A stretch of DNA of 64,000 nt. Source: Sabellastarte sp. h YS-2021 (Eukaryota; Annelida; Polychaeta; Sabellida; Sabellidae). A model generated the notes under the pieces. That model did no database searches, was not told the DNA's origin, and saw only the letters and a list, made by a program, of their open reading frames with translations. The number at the start of each line of letters is the position of its first letter. The stretch's first letter is position 1. The translations under genes and the position numbers were made by a program. The DNA lies in the NCBI GenBank assembly GCA_964017235.1, contig OZ024929.1, positions 157,031,609 through 157,095,608 of the forward strand, read 5' to 3'. This document shows positions 15,054 to 57,662 of this stretch, one piece after another.

Positions 15054-15062
15054 CTTTCTGTT

Positions 15063-20590: not shown

Positions 20591-21155
20591 ATTGCATTTG
20601 TAGTATTTCTTTAAATATGTTTTAACCTATTTTTTACACTTAAACAATTACCTTGTTATTTTCCTTCATAATACCATTTACAGGGCACAACTTTTTTATC
20701 CTTTTCTTCTGTCAGCTTCGGAATTTCTTTCGAACTTGCTGTTCAGTTACCATTTACTGTATTTCTGTACAGCCCTTTTCCTGATAATTATTCTGTCCTC
20801 TAATCACCTTCACAAATCAAAAACACTCAGTCAGCTGACACAGTGCCCGTTCACGGGCACTCTCGTTTTGTCCATTTGTCTGTCCATCAACATTTCTGTT
20901 TCCAGACACTAACTTGAAAATGCTTTGTCCAATCGAATTCAAACTTGACAGGGAGATAGGTCACCATCATAGCTGGGTTCCTTTTGAAATTGGTGTAATT
21001 CCGTCTGTTCGTTTGTCCGTTTTTTGTCCGTTTGTCGGTCCATCAACATTTCCGTTTCTGGACTCTAACTCGAAAACGGTTTGTCCAATCGAATTCAAAC
21101 TTGAGGTTGGTTTATTTAACCATTACCGCACACACCCTGTTATTATCTAGAGTTC
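20591..21155. repeat. Dispersed repeat with hairpin AGTGCCCGT-TC-ACGGGCACT
   Basis: A 9-bp perfect hairpin at 20843-20863 is followed by a leader rich in GTCC/GTCTGTCC and a direct repeat: AACATTTC..TTTC, then GTCCAATCGAATTCAAACTT at about 20926 and about 21087. The block 20590-20870 matches 53340-53520 (CATTTACAGGGCACAACTTT and the hairpin region). This is the tip-hairpin plus GTCC-rich leader layout. No coding capacity. Confidence 0.65.
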
Positions 21156-21159
21156 TTAG

Positions 21160-21240
21160 ATATCCCCCTTTTCTGGCTACCCTCCATCCAATGGGTAGTT
21201 ATTCTGCATCTGTCCACTAGGTAAGCTGTATTAACACAAT
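21160..21240 (+). mobile_element. Family-3 DIRS remnant, left half of its ICR
   Basis: GGTAGTTATTCTGCATCTGT, CACTAGGTAAGCTG and TATTAACACAAT lead to AAAA at 21241. This is the family-3 counterpart of the family-2 ICR left half at 28640-28680. CACTAGGTAAG recurs in the family-3 right ITR at 41970. The sequence is cut here by copy B/E and resumes at 41686. Confidence 0.75.
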
Positions 21241-21244
21241 AAAA

Positions 21245-21440
21245 TTGAAAATTTTGATTACTTAAATGTAGCTTTTATAAGCTACAAGCTTACCATGTGG
21301 GACTGAATGCTGTTCTCGGATGGCCGCAGGCATCCGGCCAACGTCTAAGAAAAAAAGACATTTATTGTTGGCCGTAGCCTCAGGTTGCCTTCTCACGGAA
21401 CTCTGAGATTTCTTCCTACTTTCTTGTTGCAATTTTAAAC
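21245..21440 (-). repeat. Right ITR of DIRS copy B/E
   Basis: Terminal TTGAAAATTTTGATTACTT, then GCTTACCATGTGGGACTGAA and GGCCAACGTCTAAGAAAAAA to CCTACTTTCTTG. It is inverted relative to 34123-34278 over about 150 bp. The first ~40 bp are specific to this end. Confidence 0.88.
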
Positions 21441-21480
21441 CATACCCCTCTGCTGTAATACAGCAGGGAGGGACTCTCCT

Positions 21481-21584
21481 CAGGCCCACATGGTAAGCTT
21501 GTGGCTTATAAAAGCTACATTTAAGTAATCAAAATTTTCAATTTTATTGCGATACAATAGCTTACCCTGTGGGACTGAATGCTG
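21481..21584 (-). repeat. Internal complementary region (ICR), family 1
   Basis: One half matches the outer tip of the right ITR inverted (AAGCTACATTTAAGTAATC). The other half matches the left tip inverted (ATTGCGATACAATAGCTTAC). They meet at AATTTTATTG. This is the layout expected of the DIRS ICR, the template that joins the two cDNA ends into a circle. Confidence 0.88.
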
Positions 21585-22149
21585 AATCCAACCACCCAGT
21601 GGCGGGATTACAGCTGAGACTGGAATATATGTCTTCTTTTTTTTTTGGTAGGTTTGAAGTAATGGATTAGAATGAAAGTTTGAAAGTACCAGTCCGAGTC
21701 CCGTTTACAGTGCCCCAATCCCGAAGACCGGGCCTTTAAACCTAAATTGAATGAGTGACAGATCTAAAACCTGTTTGGATGTAGGAAAGAAGTGAAGCCG
21801 TGCTCACTTACACAGAGTAAGGCCCTAGAGCCAATCCACGATATAAACCAGCCCTAGGCTTGGAATTCCTATATTTTGCCATCTAATATGAAATTAATGA
21901 CAACCTTGATAAATCCTTAATCCGTAACACACAATATATACTGATAATAAGAAAAAAGACCTTACCCGTAACATCTTGAGAGGTAACCTAGACCCTGCGA
22001 TTAGACTCCTGAAGACTTGTTTGTAGCGGATGTGCCCCCCCCCTTGTTTCTTTCTGAGGACAACTGGTCTGAGGGGAAGGATGTAGGACTTGTTGTGCCG
22101 CCACCACTGGTCACAGATACATATTGTTGTCGTCTGACCAAGTAAGGTC
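21585..22149 (-). other. 3' region of DIRS copy B/E with polypurine tract
   Basis: Non-coding segment between the ICR and the recombinase end. The run of C at 22036-22046 is the G-tract of the sense strand, in the same position as in copy A. The stretch 21960-22060 matches copy A at 15745-15870 (TTACGGGTAAGGTC end). Confidence 0.7.
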
Positions 22150-22781
22150 TTAAAGGTAAAAAGTAGTAAATGTGTTGTGAGCTTTCCAGTGACAGGCTTG
22201 CATGATTTGGTCCACCAATACCCTACCGTAAAAGGCCTTAGAAGACGCGAAGGCCCTAATGTCATGCGCTTTAACTAGGACCAAGTCCAAGGCTTGTTGA
22301 TCTGCTTGTTTATAACAAAGTAGAATGGTTTGTTTCAACCAAGAAGAAAGAGTAGCGGGTCTGATGTCTGAGGTATGTCCTTTCTTGAAGGAGATGAAAA
22401 GGAGGGATCGAGACCCTCTCAGGTCTTTGGTTCGATCCAGATAGTACCTCGGGGCCCGCACCTCAAGGTCCTGTCTTCTTTGAATTGTCTATGTACAATG
22501 GTAGTCAAAGCAGGAATAGTCACCGGAGACGCACTTTGAGAACCCTCTCTTGCTAGTTGGTTTTTGGCTATAAAATCTGAACAGGGGAACAAGGCAACCT
22601 TTTCCCATTGGCCTAGAATAGATACTTTGTTTGCAACCCAGGCATGGATTTCGCTACGGCGCTTGCCGGAGGCCAAAGCTAGCAAGAAAGCAGTTTTGAG
22701 AGTAAGATGTTTGAGGTATGTGTCTTTCATAGGCCCAAAAGGTGCTTTTGTGAGCTCATTGAGAACAACAGAAAGGTTCCA
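22150..22781 (-). pseudogene. DIRS tyrosine recombinase, catalytic half (copy B)
   Basis: Encodes VLNELTKAPFGPMKDTYLKH, ASGKRRSEIHAW, LWIEPKT after a frameshift near 22450, then FISFKKGHTSDIRPATLSSW, VKAHDIRAFASSKAFYG, DQIMQACHWKAHNTFTTFYL. All catalytic boxes (Arg, HxxR, HW, Tyr) are readable, unlike copy A. A frameshift near the RAL.YYLD block splits the frame. It is cut from its N-terminal half (29018-29300) by copy C. Confidence 0.85.
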
Positions 22782-22785
22782 TTTT

Positions 22786-22945
22786 ATTGCGTTAATACTT
22801 CCTATCCAATGGACAATTGCTAATCCGGTCGGCGCGTCCTGTGTTGCCACCGGCTGGCCGGTCCGTAGTACTGTGCACTCCCCAGATGGCGCCTCGTACT
22901 TCCTTCCTGTCTAGACAACCTGACGTCATAGCATCTTTTTCGTTT
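22786..22945 (+). repeat. Left ITR of DIRS copy C
   Basis: Starts ATTGCGTTAATACTTCC, then CCAATGGACAATTGCTAAT, the CCGGCTGGCCGG block and TGACGTCATAGCATC. It is inverted against 28797-28985. The right copy carries about 30 bp (the GCCCGCCAAACGCC part) missing here. Confidence 0.88.
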
Positions 22946-24218
22946 GGCGCGTGTACTGTGCAGACGTAGTTTCTACAATCTCCAAGATTTTTTAAAGAAA
23001 TGTGTGCATTATGGCGGATTTTCAACCTCATATGTGGATATTTTCAGTGTAGAAGTGTTATCTACTAATCAAGCACGGATATACATTTAGAAATCTGCTG
23101 GAAACGCTCCCTAGTTGACTCAATTTAATTTTGATGATAGGGCAGTATCGACGAGAAATATGAAGGCAGCCATTTTGCTAGTTTCCTCCCATTCAACCAT
23201 TGTGTTGTTTAGGGGCAGATCGACAATATGGAGGAATTATGGATATACTTCTTACAGGTATTTTTATCCGTGTCTTTTGTTTGAATGAACCTTCTGTAAC
23301 CTTCCAGCTACAGTTACCATAGAAACGTCTTTTCTAGTACTACATATGCAAATCCCGGAAATCTTCAGTCTACGTAGTTTTGAACACTGCATATAGAGGG
23401 AATTCCCCTATGGAAGGTGCATTCTTCATCAGAGCGCACTGGTACAGACTTCTCTGCTGTAAAGCATCAGTCACACCAGCCTAGCTCAAGTATTTTTTCA
23501 TCAGAAGCAATAGATGAATTCTTCAGATTTCTTCAGAGCGCACTGGTCCAGACAATCTTTGCTGCAAAGCATTAGTCGACCGGCAAGCTTATATGTATCT
23601 ACATAGAAGGCATCCATCAGAAGAGCATGAAGGTTGAACACACGTCTATTGTGATATCAGTCCCTCCCTTGCGGACCCAGCTTTGTTGTCGGTAGTGAGG
23701 GTTGTGGATGGCCAGTTCACTTGTTTTATCACGAAAGGAAGAAGGAATTTCATCTACAAATCTTCAGAGTGCACTGGTCCAGGCTCCCCTGCTTTTAAAG
23801 CATCAGCCGGCCGGCCAGCTTAAAAGAACGCGACCTCTGACGTCATATCCAGTCAGCCAATCGCGTTCCTTCCTTCCAACTCACGAAGCTGGTCACGTGA
23901 TTCACCGACCAGGTCACGAAGTTAATCACGTGATTCACCGAACAAGAAGGTCGGAAGTGCATTCTTTGCACTCACGTCTACTGTGACTCCAGTTTTTAGT
24001 TCCTGAAATTCACCTCCAGCGCACTGGTACAGACTTCTCTGCTACAGGCATCAATCGACCAGTCACCTCACGTTTACTGTGATATAAGGAAAGAACGCGT
24101 CCAGGGAGGGCATCTCCCCGAAGTTGGTCACGTGATTCACCGACCAGGTCCCGAAGCTGATCGTTATCTCCAATCAGCCAATCATATTGTCCCTCCGACC
24201 CGCAAGCGGGTCACGTGA
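22921..24218 (+). promoter_or_regulatory. Cluster of TGACGTCA, TCACGTGA and CCAAT-like motifs
   Basis: TGACGTCA at 22921-22928 and 23838-23845. TCACGTGA at 23893-23900, 23926-23933, 24128-24135 and 24211-24218. AGCCAATC near 23856 and 24175. These palindromes match CRE/ATF and E-box/MiT-TFE binding sites. Fragment D keeps one of each (31604-31611, 32745-32752). I infer an element promoter or enhancer; function is untested. Confidence 0.45.
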
Positions 24219-25190
24219 CACACCGACCAACATTTGTTTCTAAATATAGCTCACAAGGGCTTTCCCAGCAACTGTCAAATCTCAAATAAGACGTGCTTCC
24301 AAAGAAATACTTTTATTAATGGTGGAAACCTACAGCCAGCTGAATTCAACACAAAAGAGAAATGTAAAATTGCTTTAGCAATTGGTTACAGAGTGTACCG
24401 ATCAGTACCGGCTACACTGCCTTGTACACTTGCTTCAACAACTGGTTACAGAGTGTACCGGCTGGTACTGGCCACACAGCCTTGTACACTTGCTTCAACA
24501 ACTGGTTACAGAGTATACCGACCGGGTACCGGCTACACAGCCTTGTACAGTTGTTTCAACAGCTGGTTACAGAGTGTGCCGACTGGGTACCAGCTACACA
24601 GCCTTCACTGAACGGTTCATATTAGCCGGTTTATCTTAGCCGGTTACAGAACCTTCCTGCCTATTACCAACCAGCACCAAGAATCACAACTCCAAGGTCT
24701 ACCAGCTGGCCATTCCTCATCAGCAGCCTATTCACCGGCCTAAGACTGATGACAGGCCTAATAATGTGTAGTTCCTTCTTACACAGAAACTGAGTTCACC
24801 AACCGGTTACCGGCTATATAGTTTTCACTGAGCAGTTTTGCTTCACACCAGCTGGTTACAGAGAATACCGACCTATCAGGTGCAATTGCTGTCTTGCCCC
24901 TTTTTGCAATACTGGTTTCAGAGTGGGGATCACCTAGTTAGTAGACTAGTAACTTACTTATTAAATTTGCAATTTTGTACACTTGCTTCAACAACTGGTT
25001 ACACAGCCTTGTACACTTACTTCAACAACTGGTTACAGAGTGTACCAACTGGTACTGGCTATACAGCCTTGTACACTTGCTTCAACAACTAGGTACAGAG
25101 TGTACCGGCTGGTACTGGCTACACAGCCTTCTTCAACAACTGGAAAAGGCTGAGCTGGCGAAATATAGACCAGTAGATGTCAAAATTCAT
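22946..25190 (+). other. Long 5' region of DIRS copy C, in place of gag
   Basis: About 2.2 kb without a recognisable gag frame. It is shared with fragment D (31600-33222). It contains blocks built on GAGCGCACTGGTCCAGAC / CATCAGCCGG (23420-24060) and two clusters of a 60-bp repeat. Copies F and G have gag close behind the ITR instead, so C and D look like a separate, gag-less subfamily. Confidence 0.6.
24380..25145 (+). repeat. 60-bp tandem repeats in two clusters
   Basis: GGTTACAGAGTGTACCG recurs at 24384, 24444, 24504 and 24564 (60-bp period), each with CCTTGTACACTTGCTTCAAC. A second cluster lies at about 24970-25145. Related units are in fragment D at 32900-33215. The three frames across the cluster are open only because of the repeat. 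Confidence 0.85.
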
Positions 25191-25559
25191 TGGTGACCCC
25201 AGCTGAAATTTGGTTACAGAGAATTCTTAGACCAGTCAGTGGGCTTGGTGATATGACCGTGTCCCAAGCTGTGGTCGATAGTCAGACAAGCTCTTCATCA
25301 TGTCCGGCCAAGGGTCAGTCATCCCAATTTCTTGTAAAGGCTGCACCTTGCAAGATGCTGGCCTGGGGCAAGAGTCTTTTAAATGTGAAAAGTTGTGTCA
25401 GCCCCACCGGACCGGACCACAGCAAGAACAGAGAGAATGTTTTCTCGGATCATTGTCACCAGACCGGTCCAGTGTCCGGAGGCCGGAGGGACAGAAATGT
25501 TTGTCAGACTAGCAAATGTCCCGAATGTGGCACACATCTGCCTGTAGGGTCCAGACTAA

Positions 25560-26440
25560 CCCCGTTTCGGGACTTAGGAAGCCTTGGGGGGCTGGACCCT
25601 AGGTAGTACAAATGTTGAAGGAGGGCTACACTCTCCCTTCACAGGAACCTATTGGTTAGAAGCATTACATCAGCTTATGGACAAGGAATGGTGCAGTCGA
25701 GCCAGTTCAGAATCTCTGGGCTTCTTCAACCTTGCTTGGTTCCAAAACCACACAACCATTGGAGACCTATTCTAGGTCTGAGCAAACCAAACCTTTCGGA
25801 GACCATCAGGACCATCCTCCAACAATGGGAGTGGGTTACCTCATTAGATTTCAAGGAGGCCTACTTCCATATACCAATACAGGAACAGTCCAGGACATGT
25901 CAAATTTCATGTCCAGGGTCGGACATACCAGTTCAAAGCACTGTCTTTCGGTCTGTCCACTGCACCCATGGAGCTCACTGTAGTAGCAAAGGAGTTGAAA
26001 CTGATGGCCATATACAAGGTTATAATAATCCACCAGTACTTAGACCACTGGTTGGTGAAAGCCACATCCCACCGGGGTTGTCTCCGGCATACACTAGATC
26101 TAGTGAAAATATGCCCAAGTTTAGGTTACCAGTTCGACCTCATGGCCGGTCGGGTCCGTCCTATACCGGACAGAACCTTCAGGACAAATACTAGAAATAC
26201 TGTCACTACCGGTGTGTCCGGTCCAGCAGTTCATGTCTGATAGGTTTACTAACAGCCACAGGAAAGCATTTTCACCTAGGCCGACTTCATAGGAGACCCA
26301 TACGGTGGCATCTCAAAAACAACTGGAGGGTACCAGAGTCACTAGAAAAGGTGATTCCAATACCAAGGTGATTGCACCCACTTTTACAAGGGTGGTTGCA
26401 AGAGGACAATGTCATTACAGGCCAACCATTACACCCAATA
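25560..26440 (+). pseudogene. DIRS reverse transcriptase, frameshifted (copy C)
   Basis: The pieces, in different frames, are LEALHQLMDKE, SLGFFN, a NHWRPILGLSKPNL block, WVTSLDFKEAYFHIPIQE and HQYLDHWLVKA. The YLDD catalytic box is YLDH (26037-26048), so the second metal-binding Asp is lost. At least three frameshifts occur. Similarity is to copy F at 38630-39730, not to family 1. Confidence 0.82.
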
Positions 26441-27235
26441 AAGCATGATCTGCAAATTTTACAGATTCATCAAAAGCAGGGTGGGGTGCTCACTTAAACG
26501 AACACACTGCAGGAGGCACCTACTCCTGGAAAGCAAGTTGCATATCAATTACCTAGAACTCAAGGCAGTCTTTCTAGCCTTACATGAGTTCCAAGACCTC
26601 GGTATACACAATATAGTACTTGTAGAGACAGACAACACCACAGTGGTGTCATACATAAACAGGGAAGGAGGCATGAGGTCGGGCCCACTTTGTGCTTTAC
26701 TATGGAGAATTTTGATCTGGGGTGCCAGAAATCAAGTAACTCTACAAGCCCGACTCATTTCAGGCTGGCTGAGTGTGGTCACAGACAAGCTATCCAGGCT
26801 AGACCAGACCACCCAAACAGAGTGGTCTCTCCTTCAGAAGGTCTTCCAAGCAATATGCAACAGGTGGCACCGGCCTCAAATAGACCTATTTGCCACGAGG
26901 TTCAACCTCAAGTTGCCCTTGTTTGTGTCACCGGTACCGGATCCCCTGGTTACAGCAGTGAATGCGTTCAGGTTGCCATGGTAGGATCAGGAAGCATACA
27001 CCTTCCCACTATCAGTCATATTGGGCAAAGCGGTGATGTTGCAGGACTCCCCATACAAGAGGATCATTCTGATTGCACCGGGGTGGCCCATCATGCCTTG
27101 GTTTTGGGATCCAGTGGCCATGTCCAGCAAAATCCCACTGAGCCTGCCCAATCTGCCCAACCTGTTGACACAACCACTCAGTCAGATCCCTCACAGAAAT
27201 CTGACAAATCTTAATCTTGATACACGGCTCCTGGA
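26441..27235 (+). pseudogene. DIRS RNase H and connector region (copy C)
   Basis: RNase H is readable: FTDSS near 26447, YLELKAVFLAL, ETDNTTVVSYIN, TDKLSRL. The connector follows with IDLFATRFN, PVPDPL, then after a frameshift IILIAPGWPIMPWFWD. The alternative frame 26690-27214 is also open, as in the other copies. Confidence 0.8.
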
Positions 27236-28250
27236 GCCTCAGAATTCGAGGAGCAGGGCTTCGCTGAGGCGGTGGCAGCAAGAATTGAGGCTCCTCAAAA
27301 GGGCATCAACCAGATCAGTCTATGAGGCAAAGTGGACCATTGTTACAAGTGGTGCGTCACTAATCAGGTGGACCTCAGGGTACCTCTGTAACGTCAGTTG
27401 CTGACTTCCTTATGTACCTTATGAGGACAGGAAACTACAGCCCAGCACCATTGAGGGTTACAGTTCAGCCATTGCTGATTAACTGGGAAATTCACCCTTC
27501 AACATCAGCAAGGACAAAAATCTCGCTCGTCTCCTGGACAGTTTCCACAGAGACAGACCCAAGGGTAGGAGGGGCGTACCCTCCTGGAACCTCTCACTGG
27601 TCTTGCACCAGCTGAATAAGGCTTCGTTTGAACCTATCAAGGAGGCCCCCTTGAAGCATTTGACCTTCAAGACGGTATTCCTCTTGGCCCTTGGGTCGGG
27701 CAAACACAGAAGTGAGATTCATGCTTGGCAAAACAAAAATATAGACACCAATCCGATTGGTCAATGGTGTCCCCGTATCCATTACCCAGCTTTCTCTCCA
27801 AGAATCAGCTGGCCAAAGAGGGTCCAGACAGTGTGGCCCCAGGGGTATAACAGCCCTGGCCCCCAACTCTGGATAGATTCCTCAAGTCTGACAGGTCCCT
27901 CTGTCCAGTCAGAGCACTCTGCTACTATTTGGACAGGACCTCGGGCAGAATAAGGAGGTGGTTTTTGCCTCCTTTAAGAAAGGTTTTGACAAAGACATCT
28001 CACCTGCCACTATCTCTTCTTGGATCAAGCAGACTGTGATCCTATGTTATGAGCTCTCTGACCAGGAGGCCCACACTTTACATCAGGCTAAAGCCCATGA
28101 TGTCGGGGCCTTTGATGCTTCTAAGGTCTTCCAGTCGGGAGTTTCCTTGGATACAGTCTTGTCAGCCTGCCTCTGAAGTCACATAATACCTTCACATAGT
28201 TCTATTTGAAGGGCGGGGCTTGGGCTGATTCAGAGCTTTACCAATTGGGC
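27236..28250 (+). pseudogene. DIRS tyrosine recombinase, broken (copy C)
   Basis: Blocks are EQGFAEAVAARIEAPQ, SVYEAKWTI, SLVLHQLNKASFEPIKE, LLALGSGKHRSEIHAW and FASFKKGFDKDISPATISSW. The H-x-x-R box reads AHDVGAF, so the Arg is lost. The ACHW box reads ACL followed by a stop (codon TGA for Trp). Several frameshifts. It is inactive. Confidence 0.85.
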
Positions 28251-28425
28251 TCGGTAGTGGCTGCTCAGCAGATCCACAAGTGGCCTTTAGATTGAGGAGA
28301 ATTGTATATATGTATAAACAGTTTCTTCATGTACATAAGAATTAAGTGGCGTGCTTCCTTCAGGAGGTTTATTTGCATTCTGGGACTGAACTCATCCCTC
28401 TCTTCCCCTACCTCAGAGCAGGTCT

Positions 28426-28440
28426 GCAAAAGGGGGGGGG
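28426..28440 (+). other. Polypurine tract (copy C)
   Basis: CAAAAGGGGGGGGGC, between the recombinase end and the ICR, preceded by CTCAGAGCAGGTCTG that recurs next to the tract in copies F and G. Confidence 0.6.
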
Positions 28441-28639
28441 CAACGGCGGTATAGCCCCGGTTAACCGGCTGCTGGCAACCGACCATGGCCTTACAGGGTT
28501 TCCTGACCTTAAGGTCAACCCAGGCCTGGGCCTATAGGTCTCCTGACGAAGTCAGCCTAGACCTTAGGTTAAAATTTGCTATTACTTGTGAGTTCACATA
28601 AGTCCCTAGTAACCTACCCGCCGACCAAGCGGTAGTTAT

Positions 28640-28740
28640 TCAGCAATTGTCCATTGGATAGGAAGTATTAACGCAATAAAATTGCAAATTTAATAAGTAA
28701 ATTAAATTTTTATAAGTTAATACCCTATCCAATGGACACA
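28640..28740 (+). repeat. Internal complementary region (ICR), family 2 (copy C)
   Basis: ATAGGAAGTATTAACGCAAT is the exact reverse complement of this copy's own left tip. It passes through AAAA into TTGCAAATTTAATAAGT and TATAAGTTAATACCCTATCC, the reverse complement of its right tip. The private GGAAG variant of the left tip (CTTCC; TCATCC or CATCC in F and G) is copied in the ICR, as expected if one is templated from the other. Confidence 0.9.
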
Positions 28741-28796
28741 CAAGACCCTCCCACCGACCCCGCTATCAGCTTACTAGGGGTCTAATAGGTTTAGAC

Positions 28797-29012
28797 AACG
28801 AAAAAGATGCTATGACGTCAGGTTTTCTAGACAGGAAGGAAGTACGAGGCGCCATCTGGGGAGTGCACAGTACTACGGACCGGCCAGCCGGTGGCAACAC
28901 AGGACGTCTTTTTCTGGCGTTTGGCGGGCCGGTCTGCGCCGACCGTATTAGCAATTGTCCATTGGATAGGGTATTAACTTATAAAAATTTAATTTACTTA
29001 GTAAATTTGCAA
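28797..29012 (+). repeat. Right ITR of DIRS copy C
   Basis: Runs from ACGAAAAAGATGCTATGACG to the tip ACTTAGTAAATTTGCAA. It contains TGACGTCA at 28813-28820. Next to it, 28690-28796 repeats the inner side of the ICR, including CCGACCCCGCTATCAGCTTA. Confidence 0.85.
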
Positions 29013-29017
29013 TTTTT

Positions 29018-31164
29018 GAAAATTCCTGGAAATTTTTGGATGATCCCTGTGAAAATTGGAGAGTAACCTGTGAAGGTCTGAACTTTGTGCAATATGGTGG
29101 CCCGCTGGGCCCAAAGTGTCAACAATGGCCATCCTGTAACCATCAATGGTCGAGAGGGGGCCTGTTTAGATCTTGGTACAGGTACATGAAAAAGTCTGAG
29201 ATTTGTTTCACAGATGGAGTGGAGAATCCACCGAATTTTCTCTGCACCATTTCTCAAATAGGGCCCACTTTGACTTGTAGATGGTCCTTGTTGATGACCT
29301 CTGAGGTGCAGCAATTCTCTCTGCCACCTCCACAGAGAAGCCTTGTTCTTGGAGCTGTCCACTTCTAGACACCAGGCGTGGAGGTTGAGATGTTGTGGAT
29401 TGCTGTGGGACACATAATTGTGGGACTGTTTGAGAAGAGTTTTTGACACCGGGAGTTGCAGTGGGATTTCTGTTGAGAACTCCACTAGATCCCAAAACCA
29501 GGGCATCCCTGGCCAGCCTGGGGCTATTACAATGATCAGGCAATGGCATTGCCTGATTTTTTGGATCACCCTGTGAAGGAGAGCCGTTGGAGATTAAACA
29601 TAGGTAGTGAGACCCGTCCAGTTTAAGTTCAGAGCATCTATGTCCCAAGCATTTGGGTTTGGGACTGGAGACATGTACAGTGGAAGTTTGTGGTTCAGAC
29701 GAGTGGTAAAGAGATCATGAGGAGTGAACCACTTTTGACAGATCTGTTTGAACACCTGCGGATGCAGTGACCGTTCTGTTGACTGCACTTAGTTTAACCT
29801 GGTCAGGAGGTCGGTCATCACATTCAGACACCCTGGAATGTGTCTGGCTTTTAATGTTATGTGATAGCAATGACACCATGTCATGATCTTTTACAGGAGA
29901 GCGCACATCTCTGCCGAGTGAGTTCCTCCTTGTTTGTTTATGTAGGCTACCACTGTTGAGTTGTCCGTTGCAACTAGCACTGTTTGGTTCTGGCACTGGT
30001 CCTTGAAGCTTCGAAGGGCCAGGGTGACCGCCTTCAACTCTAGAACGTTTATGTGTAGCCTTTTTCCCGGTCTGACCACAGGCCCTTTGTAGAACTTTTA
30101 TCATAGTGAGCTCCCCAACCTTCATTTGAGGCGTCTGTAAAGAGTTGGATACTGTGGTCTTTGGGATGAAGGTCTGCACCTCTCATCACATTTGCAGGAT
30201 TTTGCCACCAGTCTAGGTGTGCAGAAATGGCTTCTGTCCAAGGAAGGAGGCTGTCCAGCGACTGAGGATATCTCCAGTGCTCCTTGAGATGAAACTGAAA
30301 GGGCCTCATGTGAAAGCGTCCCTCTGGGACCATTTTCTCCGTTGAGGCAAGCAACCCAATTTGCGACATCAAACATCTTGCAGGCAAAACATGTTTTGAC
30401 TTGAGTCATAGGATCAATTCCTGAAGTCTGAGCCATCTCTCTTGAATGGGTTTTACAAGGGCTGAATCTAGATGGTATTTGTAGCCCACGAACGAAAACA
30501 CCTGAGTTGGTTTTAGTTCTGATTTCTCCTGATTTATTATCCACCCCAAGGACTGGGTTAGGTCTACCACTGCCTGAGTGTTTACTTGGGCTTCCTCCTG
30601 AGACTGGGACCTGATCAGCCAGTCGTCCAGTTATTGGTGAAGTCGGAGTCCTCTGGAGAGGGCCATTAGCTTCACTTCCTTTACAATCATTGTAAAGACC
30701 TGGGGGGCTGTGGCTAGTCCGAATGGGAGGGAGGTGAACTGGAACGCCTGTGACCTGTAGCAAAATCTTAGGTACTTCCTTGAGTGTGGGTGGATGGGGA
30801 TGTGAAGGTAAGCGTTTGATAGGTCTATCGACGATACCCATTCCCCTGGAATCAGGGAGGTCCTGATGGACTCTGGAGTTTCCATTTTGAACTTTTCTAC
30901 ATGTAGAAAGTGTTGAGCCTGCTTAAGTCTTTTACTGGCCTCCTGGTGAGGCTTGGGGACTAGAAACAGGCGACAGTAAAACCCAAGAGATTTTACATTT
31001 TCCACCCTTTCTATTGCGTTCTTTGACAGAAGAGACTGGATACAAGTGGCCAGAGCTTGGTCTTTTTGACGGGCCTTGTATTCTGACTGAATCAGAGGGA
31101 ATCTGACCAGACTTGGTTTTGAAAGGAATGGCAGTACGTAGCCATTGGTGATAATGTTTAACAC
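29018..31164 (-). pseudogene. DIRS RT/RNase H and recombinase N-half (copy E part of B/E)
   Basis: On the minus strand, right to left: NGYVLPFLSKP, RLFLVPKPHQ, SSIDLSNAYLHIPIHPHS, LPFGLATAP, then LHQ followed by a stop. The YLDD Tyr codon is TAA here (complement of 30631-30633). RNase H follows (FTDASNEGWGAH, ATDNSTVVAYIN). The connector is near 29500-29750, and the recombinase start (EQGFSVEVAERIAAPQRSS, TIYKSKWALFEKWC) near 29240-29340. A short deletion plus frameshift also removes the RWRPVIDLS block. It ends at 29018 where copy C begins. Confidence 0.85.
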
Positions 31165-31437
31165 GTTTGATGAACATTTGTTTGCCAGTCTCTTCTGAAA
31201 GAACGGAGGCGACCTCCTACTGGTGGACTGAGGGAGGCTTTTAAGGAGTCATTGAGGGAGGGGTTTCCACGCCCTTGTCCCCTAGAGTGGGGTCGAAAAT
31301 GACCCCTGGAGCCTCTGAAGTTCGGTTTCCCCCTACCTGAGGAAAACAATTGGTTACTGCTTTGTGAGGAGTTGCCCCCATAGGGGCGTTTCCTGTAGGA
31401 GCCTCTTTTCTTATTGTGGGGACCTCGAAAGGGCTTA
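31165..31437 (-). pseudogene. DIRS gag C-terminal tail (copy E part of B/E)
   Basis: Encodes SSGRGKPNFRGSRGHFRPH, the Gly/Arg-rich gag tail of copy A. It breaks at the sequence equivalent to the NKPF codons of copy A (11561), where fragment D starts at the TTTT core 31438-31441. Confidence 0.8.
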
Positions 31438-33222: not shown

Positions 33223-34075
33223 ACATATTTGAGAGAAATTGTGCAGCTGCAATACTTTTGAAGATCTAAGCCATTTACTCATTATGATTATCATTAAAAA
33301 TTCACAAAGTAGCCATTACTCACTTAGCTATGGAAATACAATTCCAAACTACTGACCATGTTGTAGCTGTGGAGAAAGTTACTCACTCAAAAGTAGCCGC
33401 CAAAAGTAGCGAAAATTGAAATTTTTCCCCTTAGCATAGGATACTGTTGTACTATCCTGTGGGTCAAAAATTTGCTCAAAATTGCTGTATCTCTTACGGT
33501 TTGCGAGATATTTGTGATTTTTCACATTTTCACTAAAAGTAGCAATAAAGTAGCCATTACTCACTTGTACATTGAGCAACAGTTGTGAAACTTAAATATG
33601 TTACAGTTCACAAAAAAGTAAATGAACAACATATTTGAGAGAAATTGTGCAGCTGCAATACTTTTGAAGACATAAGCCATTTACTCATTATGATTATCAT
33701 TAAAAATTCACAAAGTAGCCATTACTCTCTTAGCTATGGAAATACAATTCCAAACTACTGACCATGTTGTAGCTGTGGAGAAAGTAGCTGAACAACATAT
33801 TGCAACAAAATACTCTAAATGCAATACACTGTAGTTTGAGAGTTATAAGTCATATAATTATACTAGGTAAAAGTGCTATTACTCTCTCAAAAGTAGGCCA
33901 AAGTTCACCAAACCCAAAAAATATTGAGTGTAAAAATTCATTAGGACAAGTAATTTACCAAAAATGTATAACTGTAATAGTTTCAGAGAAAACTGCGTGA
34001 GCCACGCATGCACACACACATGCAAATTATAATCTCCCGCCGGCGAGCCGGGCAGGACATAATAACCAAAAATCA
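33223..34075. repeat. AT-rich repeat element with 160-bp direct duplication
   Basis: 33224-33382 is repeated at 33628-33787 (period 404 bp), starting ACATATTTGAGAGAAATTGT. The ATGTTGTAGCT block also resembles 53530-53640. A GC-rich hairpin CCGGC-GA-GCCGG lies near 34038-34049. It fills the space where gag of copy B/E and the rest of fragment D should be. No coding capacity. Confidence 0.7.
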
Positions 34076-34122
34076 ACATCCAACAATACGTATGTGCTCA
34101 GAAATAGATGAAAATATCTGTG

Positions 34123-34278
34123 TAGAAAGTAGGAAGAAATCTCACAGAGTTCCGAGAGAAGGCAACCTGAGGCTACGGCCAACTATAAATGTCTTTTTTT
34201 TTCTTAGACGTTGGCCGGATTCCTGTGGCCATCCGAGAACAGCATTCAGTCCCACATGGTAAGCTATTGTAGCGCAAT
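34123..34278 (-). repeat. Left ITR of DIRS copy B/E
   Basis: Reverse complement of the family-1 left tip: CAGTCCCACATGGTAAGCTA then TTGTAGCGCAAT, ending at AAAA 34279-34282. It pairs with 21283-21420. Confidence 0.9.
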
Positions 34279-34282
34279 AAAA

Positions 34283-34500
34283 TTGCAAATTTAATAAGTA
34301 AATTAAATTTTTATAAGTCAATACCCTATCCAATGGACAATTGCTAATCCGGTCGGCGCAGACTGGCCCGCCAAACGTCAGAAAAAGGCGTCCTGTGTTT
34401 CCACCGGCCGGCCGGTCCCTAGTACTGGTGCACTCGCCAGATGGCATGTCGTACTTCCTTCCTGTCTAGACACAGTGATGTCATAGCATCTTTTTCATTG
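34283..34500 (-). repeat. Right ITR of DIRS copy F
   Basis: Tip TTGCAAATTTAATAAGT, then CCAATGGACAATTGCTAATC to GATGTCATAGCATCTTTTTC. The CRE-like palindrome is mutated (TGATGTCA). Inverted against 41579-41681. Confidence 0.88.
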
Positions 34501-34558
34501 TCTAAACTTATTAGACCCCTAGTAAGCTGATAGCGGGGTCGGTGGGAGGGTCTTGCTT

Positions 34559-34647
34559 GTCCATTGGATAGGGTATTAACTTATAAAAATTTAATTTACT
34601 TATTAAATTTGCAATTTTATTGCGTTAATACATCCTATCCAATGGAC
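34559..34647 (-). repeat. ICR of DIRS copy F
   Basis: TCCATTGGATAGGGTATTAA through ATTTGCAATTTTATTGCG to CATCCTATCCAATGGACA: the inverted right tip fused to the inverted left tip, with AATTTTATT at the joint. Confidence 0.9.
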
Positions 34648-34810
34648 AACTGCTGAATAACTACTGCTTGGTCGGCTAGGATATTAAGTGAATTCATAAA
34701 CAGAACTAAACAAAATTTCCTCTGGCCTGGATCGAGTGGAGATAAGGAGACCCCAACAAGGCCTTTGTCGGGTAGCAGAGAGCGGTTACCCGGAGCTATA
34801 CCGATGTTCC

Positions 34811-34828
34811 GCCCCCCCCCCCTTTTTT
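34811..34828 (-). other. Polypurine tract (copy F)
   Basis: Seen on the plus strand as a C-run then TTTTTT; on the element's sense strand AAAAAAGGGGGG, next to CAGACCTGCTCTGAGGTAGG, which is shared with copies C and G. Confidence 0.65.
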
Positions 34829-34914
34829 AACAGACCTGCTCTGAGGTAGGGCAAGAGAGGCATGAGTTCAGTCCCATGAGAAGGAAATAAACCTCCCGAA
34901 GGAAGCACGTCTGA

Positions 34915-36520
34915 GTTTTTAGTCGAATCTTTGATTCGAGTTATGTACTGAGTTGCGGTCACGATTTTAAATTCGCCGTTTAAACCCTTAAATATCAATT
35001 CTGCATAATATTTTCTTCACATATCTGTACATAAAGGTGTATCCTTCTTGAACCAGAATCCGGTCCATTCCACTTTCCGGTCTAAACGGTTTTAAAGTCA
35101 GACGTATGTATGTTTTTGTGCAAAAATATTAAAAGAAACTGTATATTTTTATAATAGAAGTGTTGTTTGTCATACAAACGATATTTCGTAACAAGAAAAA
35201 AGCACTAAAATGTTTCAGAAGTGACGGCTAAATGATATTGTCCAATTTTTGTAATAGACTGGAAATAGGTACAACAATCATATATTATACACTCTGCCAT
35301 TTTGAAGATTTTTAATGCTTTTATTCAGTTATATTTTATAAAGTAAAAAGCTTGTCTAGCACTTCGTCTGGCTTTCTCAAAGAACCCGTATGTCCTAGAA
35401 ACTATTGTGTTACCCATTGTGATGGCCTACTCGAACGAGTCTTTTTTAACGGTTTCATCTGCTGGTTTCTAGACGTGAACCCCCATCAATTTATTTGTCT
35501 GCTGGTGTATCACGCAGTCACTGTTAATGTAAAATTGTTGTCTGCGCATCTACCCATTTGTCAAACAAATAAACCGCAAAGAAATTAATGAATAAAGTGA
35601 CGTCACGGTAGTACTATACATTTTTCGTTCAGCCAATCAGAATCTAGAACACCTCTGGCAGAGACAATGAAAATATTTCAAACTCCGTAGTTCTACATTC
35701 AACCACTCGAAGGCGCTTTTGCATGTCCTAGAAGTTATCATGTGATTTCATTTTTCTGTCAATCCGTTTCTTATCTTGGAAGAAGTTGTCTTCCAAATTG
35801 TTTTACAGTATATTTACAAAATAAACCAGTTCGCTAATCTTATTTCCTGACAATATTTTATAAAATGGACGTTTCGACAAAGATCAAATACTGTGTCCTC
35901 GATTCTGATTCTGATTGGCTAAACGACGAAATACTTCATCGGTAAAATACAGCATAATCTCTGGCTCCCTATTATCGCTTATTGTAGCTATCGTAATATT
36001 GTAGAAACATCACACAAATATTTTATTTAAATACTTACAATTTGCTTCTGTAAAATATCCATATACAGTACTATATATCCACGCTTCAAAATTGAAATAT
36101 GTCTTCTCATTTCAAAATCAAATTTCAAACTGCAAGTCCGTGAACAGGAAATATGCTGGTAGTTTTCGTCTTAAACCAGCCTTGTAAAATATTGTCACGA
36201 AACCCCCACAAAGAACTGCCGTGACTGCGCATATTTGCTCATTAATATTAATGAGGCAAGTCCGTGAACAGGAAATGCACTGGTAGTTCTCATCTTAAAC
36301 CAGCCTTGTAAAACTTCGCATCTACAGACCCTTTATATTTGTAAACCTTTCACATCGCATCACTACAAATACCCATATCGCTACACAAATCTGAAAACAA
36401 CTCTGGAAGCGGTTTGCAAATGCGGGCAATAATACCGAGTTTAAAGATTTCAACACCCAGTGCTGCCCTAAGATTCGACTGTGTGGTTGGCAGAAGGCCA
36501 ATCACTTCACCCTTGTTTTT
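34915..36520. mobile_element. 1.6-kb insertion in the 3' region of copy F
   Basis: In copy G the GAAGCACGTC..GAGTTTGTTT segment joins directly to the ATGTACA..CTATTTACATAT segment. In copy F they are separated by about 1.6 kb of unrelated DNA. AGTCGAATCTT at the left (34921) recurs inverted near 36473-36483 (AAGATTCGACT), a possible short TIR about 35 bp inside the right boundary. It contains a 60-bp direct repeat (36140-36198 and 36253-36311, GCAAGTCCGTGAACAGGAAA). No coding frame of note. Exact ends are uncertain. Confidence 0.55.
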
Positions 36521-36641
36521 GTTTTTTTTGTGCATTTAACTATGTACAAACTATTTACATATATACATATCTCCTCAGCACCAAGGTCACTGGTGGATCT
36601 GCTGGGCAGCCACTACAGGATCCAGGTGAAAGAGCTCAGAA

Positions 36642-37545
36642 TCAGCCCAAGCCACATCCTTCAGGTAGAATTGGGTGAAGGTGTTGTGTGACTTCCAGTG
36701 GCAGGCTGATAATATTTGTTCCAGAGAGACTCCTGACTGGAAGCTGCAAAGGCCCTGACATCATGGGCTTTAACCTGATGTAGGATGAGGGCTTCCTGGT
36801 CCGAGGCTTGTAGCATAGGATCACAGTCTTTTTGATCCAAAAGGAGATGGTGGCAGGTGAGATGTCCTTGTCAAAGCCTTTCTTGAAAGAGACAAAGACC
36901 AACTCTTTATTCTGCCTGAGGTCTGAGGTCCTGTCCAAATAGTAGCGCAAAGCTCTGACCGGACAGAGGGACCTGTCAGACTTTAGGGACCTATCCAGAG
37001 TTGGGGCCAGGGCTGGTATAATCACTGGGGCCACACTGTCTGGACCCTCTTTGGCCAGCTGGTTCATGGAAAGAAAGCTGTGTGATGGATACAGGGACAC
37101 CTTTGACCAATCAGATTGGTGTCTGATATTTCTGTTATGCCAAGCATGAATCTCACTTCTATGCTTGCCCGACCCAAGGGCTAAGAGGAAAACTGTCTTG
37201 AAGGTCAAATGTTTCAGAGATGCCTCTTTGATAGGCTCAAAGGGAGCCTTGGTCAACTGGTGCAACACCAGAGATAGGTTTCAGGAGGGGATTCCCCTCC
37301 GGCCTTTGGGTCTGTTTCTGTGGAAACTATCCAGGAGACGCGTGAGATTTTCGTCTTTGCTGATGTTAAAAGGTGAATTGCCTAGTTTATCAGCAATGGC
37401 AGACCTGTAACCATCAATGGTGCTGGGCTCTAACTTCCTCTCCTGAAATAGGTACATTAGGAAGTCAGCAACTGACTTTACAGGAGGTGCCCTGAAGTCC
37501 ACCTGATTAGTGACGTACCACTTTGTAAAAAGGGTCCACTTTGCC
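36642..37545 (-). pseudogene. DIRS tyrosine recombinase (copy F)
   Basis: Reads VADFLMYLFQERKLEPSTID, GYRSAIADKLG, RLLDSFHRNRPKGRRGIPS, then after a frameshift LHQLTKAPFEPIKEASLKH, LLALGSGKHRSEIHAW, CPVRALRYYLDRTSDL and FKKGFDKDISPATIS. Near 36770 a frameshift hides the AHDVRAF box. The HW and Tyr region follows in another frame (plus-strand 36660-36720, reverse of CACTGG...). All catalytic boxes can be found, but not in one frame. Confidence 0.85.
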
Positions 37546-38422
37546 TCATAGACTGATCTGGTTGATCTTTTTGAGGACCCTCAATTCATGCTGCCACTGC
37601 CTCAGAGAAGCCCTGTTCCTTGATTGCTGAGGCTCTAGGAGCCATGCATGGAGATTTAGGTTTGTCAGATTTCTGTTAGGGATCGGATTGAATGGCTGTG
37701 TTAACAGGTTGGACAGGTTGGGCAGGCTCAGTGGGATCTGACTGGACATGGTCACTAGATCCCAAAACCAAGGCATGTTGGGCCACCCCGGAGCAATCAG
37801 AATGATTCTTTTCCATGGGGAGTCCTGCAGCTTCTCCACCACTTTGCCCAAGATGGCTGCTGGTGGGAAGGCATATGTGTCCAGATCCTCCCATTGGAAA
37901 CTGAGTGCATCCACTGCTACTGCCAGGGCATCCGGAACTGGTGACACAAACTGAGGCAACTTGTTGTTGAACCTCGTGGCAAATAGATCTATCTGAGGTC
38001 GGTGCCACCTGGTGCATATGGCTTGGAAAACCTCTTGAAGGAGGGACCACTCTGTTTGAATGGTCTGGCCTAAACAGGATAGCTTGTCTGCTACCTCGTT
38101 CAGCCGGCCCGGAATGTGTCAGGCTTTGAGAGTTACCTGGTGTCTGGTGCACCAGGTCAAGATTCTCCATAGTAGGGCACACAGAGGGCCCGACCTCATG
38201 CCTCCTTCTTTGTTTATGTAAGACACTACTGTAGTGTTGTCGGTTGCCACAAGTACTATTTTGTCGTTGCAAAGGTCTTGGAACTCTTTCAGTGCTAGAA
38301 AGACTGCTTTTAGTTCCAGATAGTTTATGTGCAGCTTGCTTTCTGGTAGGGACCATGACCCTCTTGCAGTGCGTTTGTTTAAGTGAGCGCCCCACCCTTC
38401 TTTTGATGCATTGGTAAATATT

Positions 38423-38617
38423 AAAACAGAAAACAAATGCAGAAGTGGTAGTAGTCACAGATAAAGTTCACTTTATACCAAATATATATGGAGTTGGGCC
38501 TTATACTGTTGTGATGTTATACACAACTGTATTTCGATAGTCAAAGTGTGCTATCTCATCAGAGGCTGGAGAATTAGTCTAACAATCCCCGTAAGTAATT
38601 TTTCAGAAGTGCAATCT
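38423..38617 (-). mobile_element. 195-bp insertion carrying a hammerhead ribozyme
   Basis: Flanked by the perfect 9-bp direct repeat GTAAATATT (38414-38422 and 38618-38626), and absent from the RNase H of copies A, C and E. It holds one complete hammerhead motif on the minus strand. It has no coding capacity and no A/B boxes. Hammerheads are known in Penelope-like elements and in small retrozymes, so it may be a truncated Penelope-like terminus or a retrozyme. It is not a copy of the PLE at 43257-50176 by simple inspection. Confidence 0.8.
38499..38567 (-). ncRNA. Hammerhead ribozyme motif HHR2
   Basis: Minus strand, 5' to 3': stem I GCCU, core CUGAUGA, stem II GAUAG...CUAUC with a 10-nt loop, GAAA, stem III AUAC-A-GUUGUG paired to CACAAC-A-GUAU (10 pairs, one A.A mismatch, 8-nt loop), U16.1, cleavage-site A17, then AGGC closing stem I. 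All invariant core positions (CUGANGA, GAA, A15.1-U16.1, H17) are present. Cleavage would fall between 38503 and 38502. Confidence 0.85.
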
Positions 38618-38640
38618 GTAAATATTTGCAGAGTATGTTT

Positions 38641-39870
38641 TATTGGGTGTAATGGTTGACCTGTAAGAACGTTGTCTTCTTGTAGCCACCTTTGTAAGTG
38701 GGGGTGCAGTGACCTGGGAATCGGGATTACCTATTCTAGTGATTCGGGTACCCTCCAGTTGTTTTTGAGATGCCACTGTATGGGTCTTATGTGTAGTCGG
38801 CCTAGGTGAACTTGCTTTTCTGTGGCTGTTAGCAAACCTATCAGGGACATGAACTGCCGGACCGGACAGGCCGGTAGTGACAGTATTTCTGATATTTTGT
38901 CCTGAAGATTCTGCCACCGATCCGGTGTGGGTCGAACCCGACGGGATCTGAGGTCGAACTGGTAACCTACAAAATCAAAGATCTACTTTGGCTCCAGCTC
39001 TGACTTTTCCAAATTCGCCAGCCAACCTAGTTCTTGGCATATTTTCATTAGATCCTGAGTATGCTGGAGACAGACCTGGTGGGATCTGGCTCTCACCAAC
39101 CAGTCGTCTAGGTATTGGTGGATCCTTCTACCCTTGTGTATGGCCATCAGTTTCACCTCCTTTGCCACTACAGTGAACTCCAAGGGTGCTGTAGACAGGC
39201 CTAAAGGCAAGGCTTTGAACTGGTATGTCTGACCTTGGACATACTCAGATATTTCCTGGACTGTTCCTGTATTGGTATGTGGAAGTAGGCGTCTTTGAAA
39301 TCTATTGAGGTGACCCACTCCCCTTGTTGGAGGCATGTCCTGATGGTTTCCGGTGTCTCCATTTTGAATTTCTCCGCCTTGAGGAAAAGATTCAGTTTGC
39401 TCAGATCTAATATAGGTCTCCATTTGTTGTTGGGCTTTGGGACCAAAAATAGTTGGTTGAAAAACCCGAGAGAAGTTTGGTTTTGTACTAGCTCTACCGC
39501 ATGTTTGTCTATAAGCTGATGTAATGCCTCCAGCAGGTAGCTGTTCCTGTGGGGATTGACATAGCAGCTTATGACCGTGGGAGACCTTGTGAGTTTCGGC
39601 CAGAAGGGGAGGGTGTAACCCTCTTTCAGGATTTGAACTACTTTCGGACCGGCACCCAGATCTAGCCAAGTTTGCCAAAAGTTTTGAAGTCTGGCCCCTA
39701 CAAGACAATTGAGTGACACAAGAAGCACTTGTCACATACTTTAATCTGTGATTTTTGTAATAACAACTTGCTGACCTGGGACTTAACTCTCTCTTTTGGG
39801 AGTGCCCAGGTGCAGAAGGTACAACATTGACAACATTTAAGTTTACAGTCTGTTTGAAAGAAGTGTTCAT
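38641..39870 (-). pseudogene. DIRS reverse transcriptase (copy F)
   Basis: In two overlapping frames: EGYTLPFWPKLTRSPTVIS, LLEALHQLIDKHAVELVQNQ, GFFNQLFLVPKPNNKWRPIL, WVTSIDFKDAYFHIPIQEQS; after a frameshift LPLGLSTAPLEFTVVAKEVK and HQYLDDWLVRA (catalytic YLDD, complement of 39103-39114). This is the only family-2 copy with an intact YLDD. A frameshift between the DFKDAYF and LPLGLSTAP blocks still disables it. Confidence 0.85.
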
Positions 39871-40045
39871 TGTCTCTCCTGTGTAAGTGCTCCCGGCCAG
39901 CAGTCAGTCCTGGAACCTGGTCATACAGTGATTGTCATTTGTATGACTGCTGGCCCTTGGCAGATCATGATGAAAAGTTAGAGTTCTTGCTTCTACTTCA
40001 TCTAAACTGATGCCTCCCAATATTTTTAAGGCAGGTCTCTCCTGC

Positions 40046-41578
40046 TTAGCCTCCGACCGACCTCTTATCATGCCTTTCATAAGGATGGAACCGACCTTTG
40101 TGGTGTGAAGACGATGCAGTTAACGGTCCTTTGTTATCATAATGCGCGATTTCCTCCTCTGCCCATTTGATGACTGCATCCAGAAATAATGTTGAAATGT
40201 GAAGGGGCGCTGTCCTGAGAGCTGCCAACGTATCCGGTTTGATGCCATTCTTCACATGGTTCAAGTAAGCATCACGACGGACCAGAGTAAGATTTCCCAT
40301 CGTTATGAAAACAAAATCTGTCAGATGCTCCATCGCCTTCACCGCTGCCTGTGTGATACTGGAGTTGAACTCCATGAGGAACTGCAGTTCTTCAGTTGCT
40401 TCAGAGGATTTAGAGGGTCTCTTGCCTTTGCTTTCGCTAAGTATCGTCTTAAGTTGTGTTTGCATGTCTTTCTGGACCTTAAACGAGCAGCGATTGATTA
40501 CACACTACCGACGCCTCTCTGGCAGTCCTCTCCCATCTTCTTAGGGTATCTTGCGATATCCTACGTGATGCTGGTGGGGTGGAGGCCAAGGCTGCCTTCC
40601 TGGAGATCCTGCCAAAACTACTGTTCAACTTGCAGTGGCCTGTGTACCAAGAGGAGACCTTTGTCAGATCGGCTGGTTGGTCGGAATAAAGTCCATACCA
40701 CTTGGCTTGCAATCTTGGGGGTCTCAAAAAGTGGTCCATAGGTAAACTACCAGCTTCTGCAGTTTTCAACGGATAACCCTCTACTAAGTTGATATTCAAT
40801 CTGCTCAGCTTTTTGCAAAGCCACTCCTCAGTGGGCATCTGTACAGAGACCTTGCTAGGAGCCGGAGTCTTGGGTCCAGCAAAAGGGTTGTTGTCTGAGG
40901 GGTTGGAACTGTCTACATCCGGTACATGCGATCAACCCATAAAGGACCGGATACCCCTCATCGTTTCTCTGTACGTCTGCTCCTCTGAGGTTGGTAGATC
41001 ATGCTCAGTAAGCTCTTGCTCGTCCGACAACTCTCCTTCCTCAACAAAAAGTTCAACCGGAGGTCTGTCTGAAAAATCACTGCTTCCGACTCAATACTAG
41101 AAATACTGTCCCTTCTGGAAGCTTTCCGCAAAGTAGGTGAATCAGAGCCAGTGGTGAAAGCAGGTTTAGGTCGGTCGGTAAGAGGTCAGTTGGTGAGAGG
41201 AGGGTCGGTGAGTGACATATTGGTACTCTTAGCAGGCAGGCTGGAAGGTCGGTGAGAGTCAGTGTGTGGCTTGCCGGTCAACTTGCTCTTAACAGTAGCC
41301 ATGTCTGGACCAGTGCGCCCAGTTGAAGGCTTGTGTCGACTGTCTGACTGTAGCTTGCCGGCCGACTTCTGCTTTGTAGCAGTACTGTCTGGGCCAGTGC
41401 GCTGTAAAGATGAACTTCCTGAAGCCGAACTGTCTGTAGGCCAGTGCGCTGAGGAGTTGAAGAAACATCCTTAGTTCTGTTGGTCGGCTGAAAAAATGGT
41501 TCAGTGTCTCTGGCGACATTGGCAGAAGGTGAGTGAGAAGGGGAAACTCTAACCTCAGATGAGAAAGTCGGCTGCAGA
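40046..41578 (-). pseudogene. DIRS gag-like region (copy F)
   Basis: Pieces on the minus strand: 40479-40838 (EWLCKKLSRLNINLVEGYPL, FLRPPRLQAKWYGLY), 40046-40465 (QTQLKTILSESKGKRPSKSS, KAMEHLTDFVFITMGNLTLV, HPYERHDKRS) and a Ser/Pro/Asp-rich N-terminal part up to 41578. They match copy G piece by piece. Stops and frameshifts separate the pieces. The N-terminal Cys-rich segment seen in copy G is not found; the join to the ITR at 41578 suggests a deletion. Confidence 0.7.
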
Positions 41579-41681
41579 GATGGCCGGTGGAAACACAGGA
41601 AGTCTTTTTCTGACGTTTGGCAGGCCGGTCTGCACCGACCAGATTAGCAATTGTCCATTGGATATGATGTATTAACGCAAT
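41579..41681 (-). repeat. Left ITR of DIRS copy F (shortened)
   Basis: GGCCGGTGGAAACACAGGAA to GATGTATTAACGCAAT, ending at the AAAA core. The inner part with TGACGTCA, present in G and C, is missing. Confidence 0.85.
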
Positions 41682-41685
41682 AAAA

Positions 41686-42018
41686 TGGAAAATTTAATTT
41701 ACTTAGAAGTTAATACCTTACATAGTGGACAAGGGGATTCCCACCCTACCTCCCCGCTTTTCTAAGCCAAAGGGGACTTTCTTCAGTGGGCAACAAAAAG
41801 AGGAAGAGTGCATGCGCAAGCATGCGCAGTACACTGGCAGGCAGGCTACACAGCCACCTGGTGAGTGAACAGGACACTACCGGTCTCGGCCAGAGCCCAG
41901 CTCAGAACATTTTTTTTATAACGTTTGGCGAGACCGGCAGGGCACTGGACAAATGCATCTGTGCACTAGGTAAGGTATTAACTTATAAAAATTTAATTAC
42001 TATTAAATTTTCCATTCT
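41686..42018 (+). mobile_element. Family-3 DIRS remnant: right half of ICR and right ITR
   Basis: It starts TGGAAAATTTAATTTACTT, then GTTAATACC and a GTGGACAAGGGGATTCCCAC segment parallel to the family-2 ICR flank. It ends CACTAGGTAAGGTATTAACT, then ATTAAATTTTCCATT, the inverse of its own start. With 21160-21240 it rebuilds one ICR plus right ITR. The ITR interior differs from families 1 and 2. Confidence 0.75.
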
Positions 42019-57367: not shown

Positions 57368-57371
57368 AAAA

Positions 57372-57600: not shown

Positions 57601-57662
57601 TGTCTAAACCTATTAGACCCCTAGTAAACTGATAGCAGGGTCGGTGGGATGGTCCTGTGTGT

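Follow-up and report, generated by a model that had tools for sequence, protein, structure and literature searches.

Two DIRS retrotransposons stacked at the internal complementary region core of a third in Sabellastarte, and recurrent joins between DIRS families

To our knowledge, the choice of targets by DIRS retrotransposons has been little studied beyond an old report of DIRS-1 preferring DIRS-1; Cappello, Cohen and Lodish are said to have described in 1984 a preferred insertion of DIRS-1 into DIRS-1 copies. The locus described here raises the question of whether elements of different DIRS families use each other's joining sites as targets. It lies in a stretch of 64,000 nucleotides, hereafter the window (G000:C3:157031609-157095608, contig OZ024929.1), of the annelid Sabellastarte sp. 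h YS-2021, the genome of which comprises 1.786 Gb in 647 contigs. Within the window two DIRS elements, B and F, are stacked inside the internal complementary region (ICR) of a third, the family-3 element. The names family-3, B and F are those of an initial annotation of the window, and A is used for a relative of B. The end of an element that adjoins its own ICR is defined as its right end.

The composition of the stack can be read from its three boundaries. The family-3 element, on the plus strand, begins as a remnant at 21104..21240, where ICR-adjacent sequence is followed by the left half of the ICR (approximately 21206-21240), complementary to the left end of the family. The left side of this element is cut off at approximately 21104 and its body is missing. 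At the left boundary the letters run GTATTAACACAAT up to 21240, then come AAAA, the core of the family-3 ICR (21241..21244, plus strand), and TTGAAAATTTTGATTAC, the tip of B, from 21245. The middle boundary consists of TGTAGCGCAAT up to 34278, an AAAA core at 34279..34282 (plus strand) between the left tip of B and the right tip of F, and TTGCAAATTTAATAAG, the tip of F, from 34283. At the right boundary GTATTAACGCAAT extends up to 41681 and is followed by AAAA at 41682..41685 (plus strand) and by TGGAAAATTT, which is family-3 sequence again, from 41686. This right-hand remnant (41686..42018, plus strand) comprises the right half of the ICR (41686 to approximately 41733, plus strand), a spacer, the right inverted repeat, the extension and the right tip at 42018, and the two halves of the family-3 ICR are now 20.4 kb apart.

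Both B (21245..34278) and F (34283..41681) are on the minus strand, opposite to family-3, and AAAA follows each of them. The ICR of B (minus strand, approximate limits 21480..21585) and that of F (minus strand, approximate limits 34557..34660) sit just inside 21245 and 34283, and therefore these two positions are the right ends, and 34278 and 41681 the left ends. As each element has its own ICR inward of the right tip and a matching left tip at the far end, B and F are whole insertions as regards their ends. The boundary letters together with the end positions thus bear out the initial annotation, according to which two DIRS elements were stacked in the same orientation at an AAAA core within the ICR of a third, with only AAAA between them. 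The nest is genuine, and it is built of typical DIRS parts.

According to the accessible parts of the description by Piednoel et al. (2011, PMC3266345), members of the DIRS1-like superfamily have inverted terminal repeats, a right extension and ICRs complementary to both ends, and they integrate, with no target-site duplication, through recombination at a short motif of the circular junction. The ends, ICRs and integration features of the elements studied here are the same. Inverted terminal repeats (ITRs) and the right extension were found in B, in F and in two further DIRS elements of the window (22786-29012 and 57372-61634), and family-3 has its right end only in the window. In the same four elements the ICR is complementary to both ends, which meet at the core, with 0-2 substitutions per half. 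Tip and ICR differ by 2/62 and 2/39 substitutions in B and by 1/58 and 2/35 in F, whereas the match is degraded in family-3 (4/39 plus two gapped positions in the right half, which alone is comparable), and the host family-3 element therefore looks older. A 4-bp core on both sides is also seen in the elements at 22786-29012 (TTTT) and 57372-61634 (AAAA), neither of which shows a target-site duplication beyond this short core. One difference concerns the junction, which is of 2 to 3 bp in the accessible parts of PMC3266345 and AAAA, loosely matched in targets, in the present case. At the protein level, RVT_1 was matched above the cut-off in A and F and below it in 25619-26194, and RVT_3 was matched in 26442-26984; the broken frames of B that were scanned gave no reverse transcriptase match. 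Phage_integrase was matched (E 4.5e-4, below the curated cut-off) at 58063-58632 on the minus strand, within the element at 57372-61634, and homologous DNA is present in F; B gave no Phage_integrase match. The methyltransferase domain had no match among the 20 open reading frames scanned, many of which are broken.

If the stack is an insertion into an ICR, copies of family-3 elsewhere should carry the site in its empty form. A query of 101 nt spanning the left junction returned 40 scored places including the window (1773 candidates at first look), and the 39 others, chosen by a query that contains the neighbour of 21206-21240, were all fetched. In 38 of these 39 copies the letters after AAAA are those of the right half belonging to the same family (T(G/A)GAAAATT-like), the exception (L004) being a chimera, and the right tip is met 280-567 nt further on in 30. 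Both counts speak against 21206-21240 being a terminal left end, and this alternative was rejected. A neighbour of the same kind, TAGTTATTCAGCA, adjoins the F ICR. When 21104-21244 was joined in silico to 41686-42018, the product aligned nearly full length, with 84.7-88.5% identity, to all nine of the fetched copies that were tried; this check had been proposed in the initial annotation. The join itself is gap-free in two of the nine alignments, those that were printed, and the letters across the core were seen in all 39 copies. The locus is rich in repeats and was judged from the assembly alone, which would leave room for an assembly error; the window, however, contains no gap characters (N), its contig is 189 Mb long and joins of the same kinds are present on many other contigs, so that an artefact of this sort is extremely improbable.

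Two of the three boundaries of the stack recur in the genome as exact sequences. The 35-mer leading from an F/family-3-type left arm into the right tip of B occurs at 52 places including the window, and the one leading from B into F at 13, that is, at 12 places besides the core at 34279..34282; the reversed controls gave 0 in both cases. These numbers are counts and not rates per element, and with controls at 0 they support reuse of the cores of DIRS ends and ICRs across families. Eleven of the 63 other joins were read (10/51 and 1/12), and all of them have DIRS sequence on both sides, ten being end-to-end and one being at an ICR. The tip of B was found joined to seven F-like left ends (L096, L097, L106, L107, L111, L112, L113), a family-3 left end (L110), an odd DIRS-like left end (L109) and the left half of a family-3-like ICR (L108), although in L106-L113 the letters end before the right end of B and the right half of B's ICR become distinguishable. 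The one join read from B into F (L114) starts from a B left end. Such differences among the left-hand partners argue for several origins of the joins. On contig C11, an F-like left end meets the tip of B at C11:57017056 and a B left end meets the tip of F at C11:57023366, 6.3 kb away and in the same orientation; this pair is likely to be a second triple stack, F-like/B/F, as judged from its two outer joins.

The right junction of the stack (F left end, AAAA, right half of the family-3 ICR) was used as a query as well and gave 40 scored places from 3109 candidates, which were chosen by similarity and give no rate. Only the window matched over the full length at 100%. The 11 places that cover the left end and cross the core were read, and the other 28 rows, starting past the left end, were taken as ICRs unread. 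Among those read, an F-like left end abuts the right end of B (L096, L097), a family-3-type right end (L100) or a degenerate DIRS right end (L098), and L098 and L100 are two more end-to-end joins. In addition, an F-like left end lies within a family-3-like right extension in L101 and, in L099, at the corresponding position in the right half of an ICR, and an F-like right tip lies in the right half of a family-3 ICR in L095. Taken together, the recurring end-to-end joins between families suggest that DIRS families can reuse each other's joining sites.

Recurrent joins might also arise if B and F had been united beforehand, either by recombination between circles at the shared core or as a composite element, and had entered the ICR in a single integration, the other joins being copies of the composite. 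The one single AAAA between B and F would agree with this, and so would two local arrays of repeated joins, three at a spacing of approximately 3.4 kb (C2:55016803-55023628) and three at approximately 6.9 kb (C19:30117452-30131236), which look like local amplification. The left partners, however, vary in family or subfamily (F-like, L107 type, family-3, an ICR), the orders F|B and B|F are both found, and the joins are spread over many contigs. We therefore consider a pre-joined unit unlikely.

Another possibility is coincidence at AT-rich targets, in which case the ICR core would just happen to be among the favourable A-rich sites open to DIRS circles. A motif was obtained from 67 insertion sites, namely the 69 sampled flanks described below minus L017 (a local duplication) and L037 (a stack). 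It has A at -6 (49/67), -4 (44), -3 (66) and -2 (63), and A or T at -1 (59). The core at 57368, scored in a wrong register, was disregarded. By this motif the family-3 and F ICR cores rank in the top 0.6-1.0% of sites, and the cores at 39 F tips are by no means uniform: AAAA in 14, AAAT in seven, AAAC, GAAT, CAAA and TAAA in three each, CATT in two, and GGAA, GAAA, GAAC and CAAT in one each. Both observations speak for coincidence, as does the absence of ICRs from the 69 flanks. The number of joins expected by chance, N*N/sites at 3.6e7 sites, is 0.03 for 1,000 elements per class, 2.8 for 10,000 and 25 for 30,000, where N and the number of sites are assumed, compared with the 52 and 13 seen, and the joins thus likely exceed chance. 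Moreover, the F ICR has a motif weight of 3.1 per base, which does not exceed that of the F body (3.9) or the flanks (3.6), so that the motif alone would predict no excess in the ICR, and motif density was rejected as the cause. Nevertheless, two known tips (of three types searched) were found in ICRs and none in the body stretches of the 78 sampled loci, which amount to 47.5 kb of family-3 body plus the inward part of the F loci (approximately 1.3 kb per locus as estimated from locus length, assuming continuity); these numbers are small. On balance, coincidence has only a small probability of being the right explanation.

The initial annotation went further and proposed the ICR as a hotspot for insertions across families. 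Part of this stands: the stack is at an ICR core, B and F have the orientation dictated by that core, family-3 copies match the joined site and cross-family joins recur. A number of observations weigh against the rest. The F sample was drawn with a 118-nt right-end query in which the ICR was not considered, and it consists of 40 scored copies of 990 candidates, 39 besides the window. No DIRS tip of known type was present at the core in the 39 other family-3 ICRs or in the 39 other F ICRs, and none of the 69 sampled insertion flanks (at the right tips of 39 F and 30 family-3 copies) abuts an ICR. As the query over the left junction favours intact cores no more than those with a B-like right tip, the family-3 sample should not hide nests. 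Just one of the 69 flanks is stacked (L037), and it abuts another family-3 left end, forming a same-family tandem; one F tip (L047) lies inside an F-like body. The F flanks L046, L052, L074 and L076 match B at approximately 33220-33830, presumably a non-DIRS repeat, and were not counted as DIRS. In four of the 11 right-junction places read (L102-L105) the left end lies in ordinary DNA. The expected enrichment of ICR cores for DIRS insertions is accordingly not seen in the samples, beyond the one further one-sided case, L108; a modest excess would be compatible with samples as small as these.

DIRS sequence was found near the core, but not at it, in 2 of the 78 ICRs (95% interval 0.3-9%). A DIRS left end lies 7-11 nt beyond the family-3 ICR core in L029, and the right tip of B lies in the F ICR of L046 at TAAA, 7 nt from the core and at a position homologous to that of L029. 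Tips of different DIRS families are thus located at a homologous base in the ICRs of different families, with one junction seen in each. Together with L095 and L099, these are one-sided DIRS insertions a few bases off the core inside ICRs; that a single junction was seen in each of them, as well as in L108, belongs to the points against the explanation by integration favoured below. Part of the ICR is missing from L049 and L071 and the outer left part from L055, with no known DIRS tip there.

To the same side of the balance belong four places, L004, L082, L083 and L085, which had been candidates for further ICR nests and were dropped after the sequence beyond the junction was read. In L004 (C2:166180972), L082 (C1:178756003) and L083 (C18:22920187) the ICR is followed, at or near a common TTAATAC motif, by an inverted repeat that leads to an element's 5' region, and in L004 a family-3 ICR is joined to an F-like left repeat. 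These three prove to be ICR-to-left-ITR chimeras and not nests, and look like template switches in DIRS replication. On the far side of L085, a left end of matching type is found 6.2 kb away, in ordinary DNA and not in the other half of the host's ICR. In L085 and L094 (C19:34891010 and C19:34883400) a DIRS right tip meets, via TTTT, another F-like element whose ICR and body are inverted; this is an inverted fusion and not a clean nest. L008 was rejected as a case of F inserted into the body of a family-3 element, since similarity to family-3 extends there over only 242 nt; at L008:440-540 a right extension ending in other DNA follows the left half of an F-type ICR, with ATAAAA as the point of fusion, and this element may have had its right end rebuilt from its own ICR.

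Structures of this kind raise the question of whether the joins could be by-products of replication, made before integration by template switching among ICRs, ends and ITRs. L004, L082, L083 and L008 are chimeras of an ICR with an ITR or a right extension at short shared motifs, and L085 is an inverted ICR fusion, which speaks for template switching. The window, on the other hand, has both tips of B and F, the halves of the host ICR on two sides and joins exact at the 4-bp core, and template switching as the origin of the stack appears very unlikely.

The stack is instead probably the outcome of successive tyrosine-recombinase integrations at cores resembling a circle junction, more often those of element ends than those of ICRs. 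A family-3 DIRS1-like retrotransposon would have been resident first and would have lost its left part since. The 4-bp AAAA core, which would be common to the family-3 ICR and the circle junctions (CAAT left arm, AAAA, TTG/TGG right arm), would then have been the site of strand exchange by a tyrosine recombinase, through which the circles of B and F integrated in succession. Every integration would leave AAAA on both sides, and because each new boundary would again be a left-arm/core/right-arm site, it could accept another circle, resulting in a stack. From the observed anatomy, the exact junctions, the match to the empty site and the recurrence of cross-family joins, we infer the agency of circles and of a tyrosine recombinase, the succession of the events and the order in which B and F arrived. 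The recurrence of the joins supports the broader claim, namely that DIRS elements reuse the circle-junction-like cores of families other than their own, mostly at element ends in the cases read. Tentatively, the DIRS families with AAAA cores might even share one attachment-site logic. Any left-arm/AAAA/right-arm junction, be it a boundary or an ICR, could then take circles of other families, arrays could grow by serial cross-family integration, and the ICR, serving circle formation, would be exposed as a side effect. Such serial integration can be likened to the stacking of phages at one attachment site.

DIRS elements landing in DIRS elements are likewise known from Dictyostelium discoideum, where DIRS-1 prefers DIRS-1 copies and the preference is attributed, in the accessible parts of the two sources, to tyrosine-recombinase-mediated recombination (PMC5006619, PMC5633606). 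In contrast to DIRS-1, the partners here belong to different families, the joins are at one exact 4-bp core and they are scattered over the genome. No report of cross-family DIRS stacking or of DIRS insertion into an ICR was found in the literature searched, including PMC5977194, PMC9210276 and PMC9506716, in so far as it was accessible, most subscription papers being outside reach. If the boundaries are shared attachment sites, target choice becomes testable base by base in any DIRS-rich genome, the nesting and clustering of DIRS elements has a concrete cause, and DIRS recombinases are worth considering for site-specific integration with a short AT-rich core as the target.

As for the remaining features of the window, B is itself interrupted by two F-like DIRS elements. 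One is complete (22786..29012, plus strand) and has TTTT at either side; of the other only the left part is present (31442..33220, plus strand, right limit approximate), which starts after CTTA-TTTT, the right part having been lost. The gag-side sequence of B is lost as well. Element A (9447 to approximately 15890) has a body homologous to that of B, with 89.5% DNA identity in the reverse transcriptase region, and carries the uninterrupted counterpart of B at the site of the 22786-29012 element, save for an adjacent insertion resembling a long interspersed nuclear element (LINE). This insertion within A contains a LINE-like reverse transcriptase (RVT_1) at 14141-15286 on the minus strand and is accompanied by a 9-bp target duplication, AACAGAAAG. 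Satellite-like tandem arrays flank the nest at 16270-19972 and 42183-43256, with spacings of approximately 168, 133 and 147 bp.

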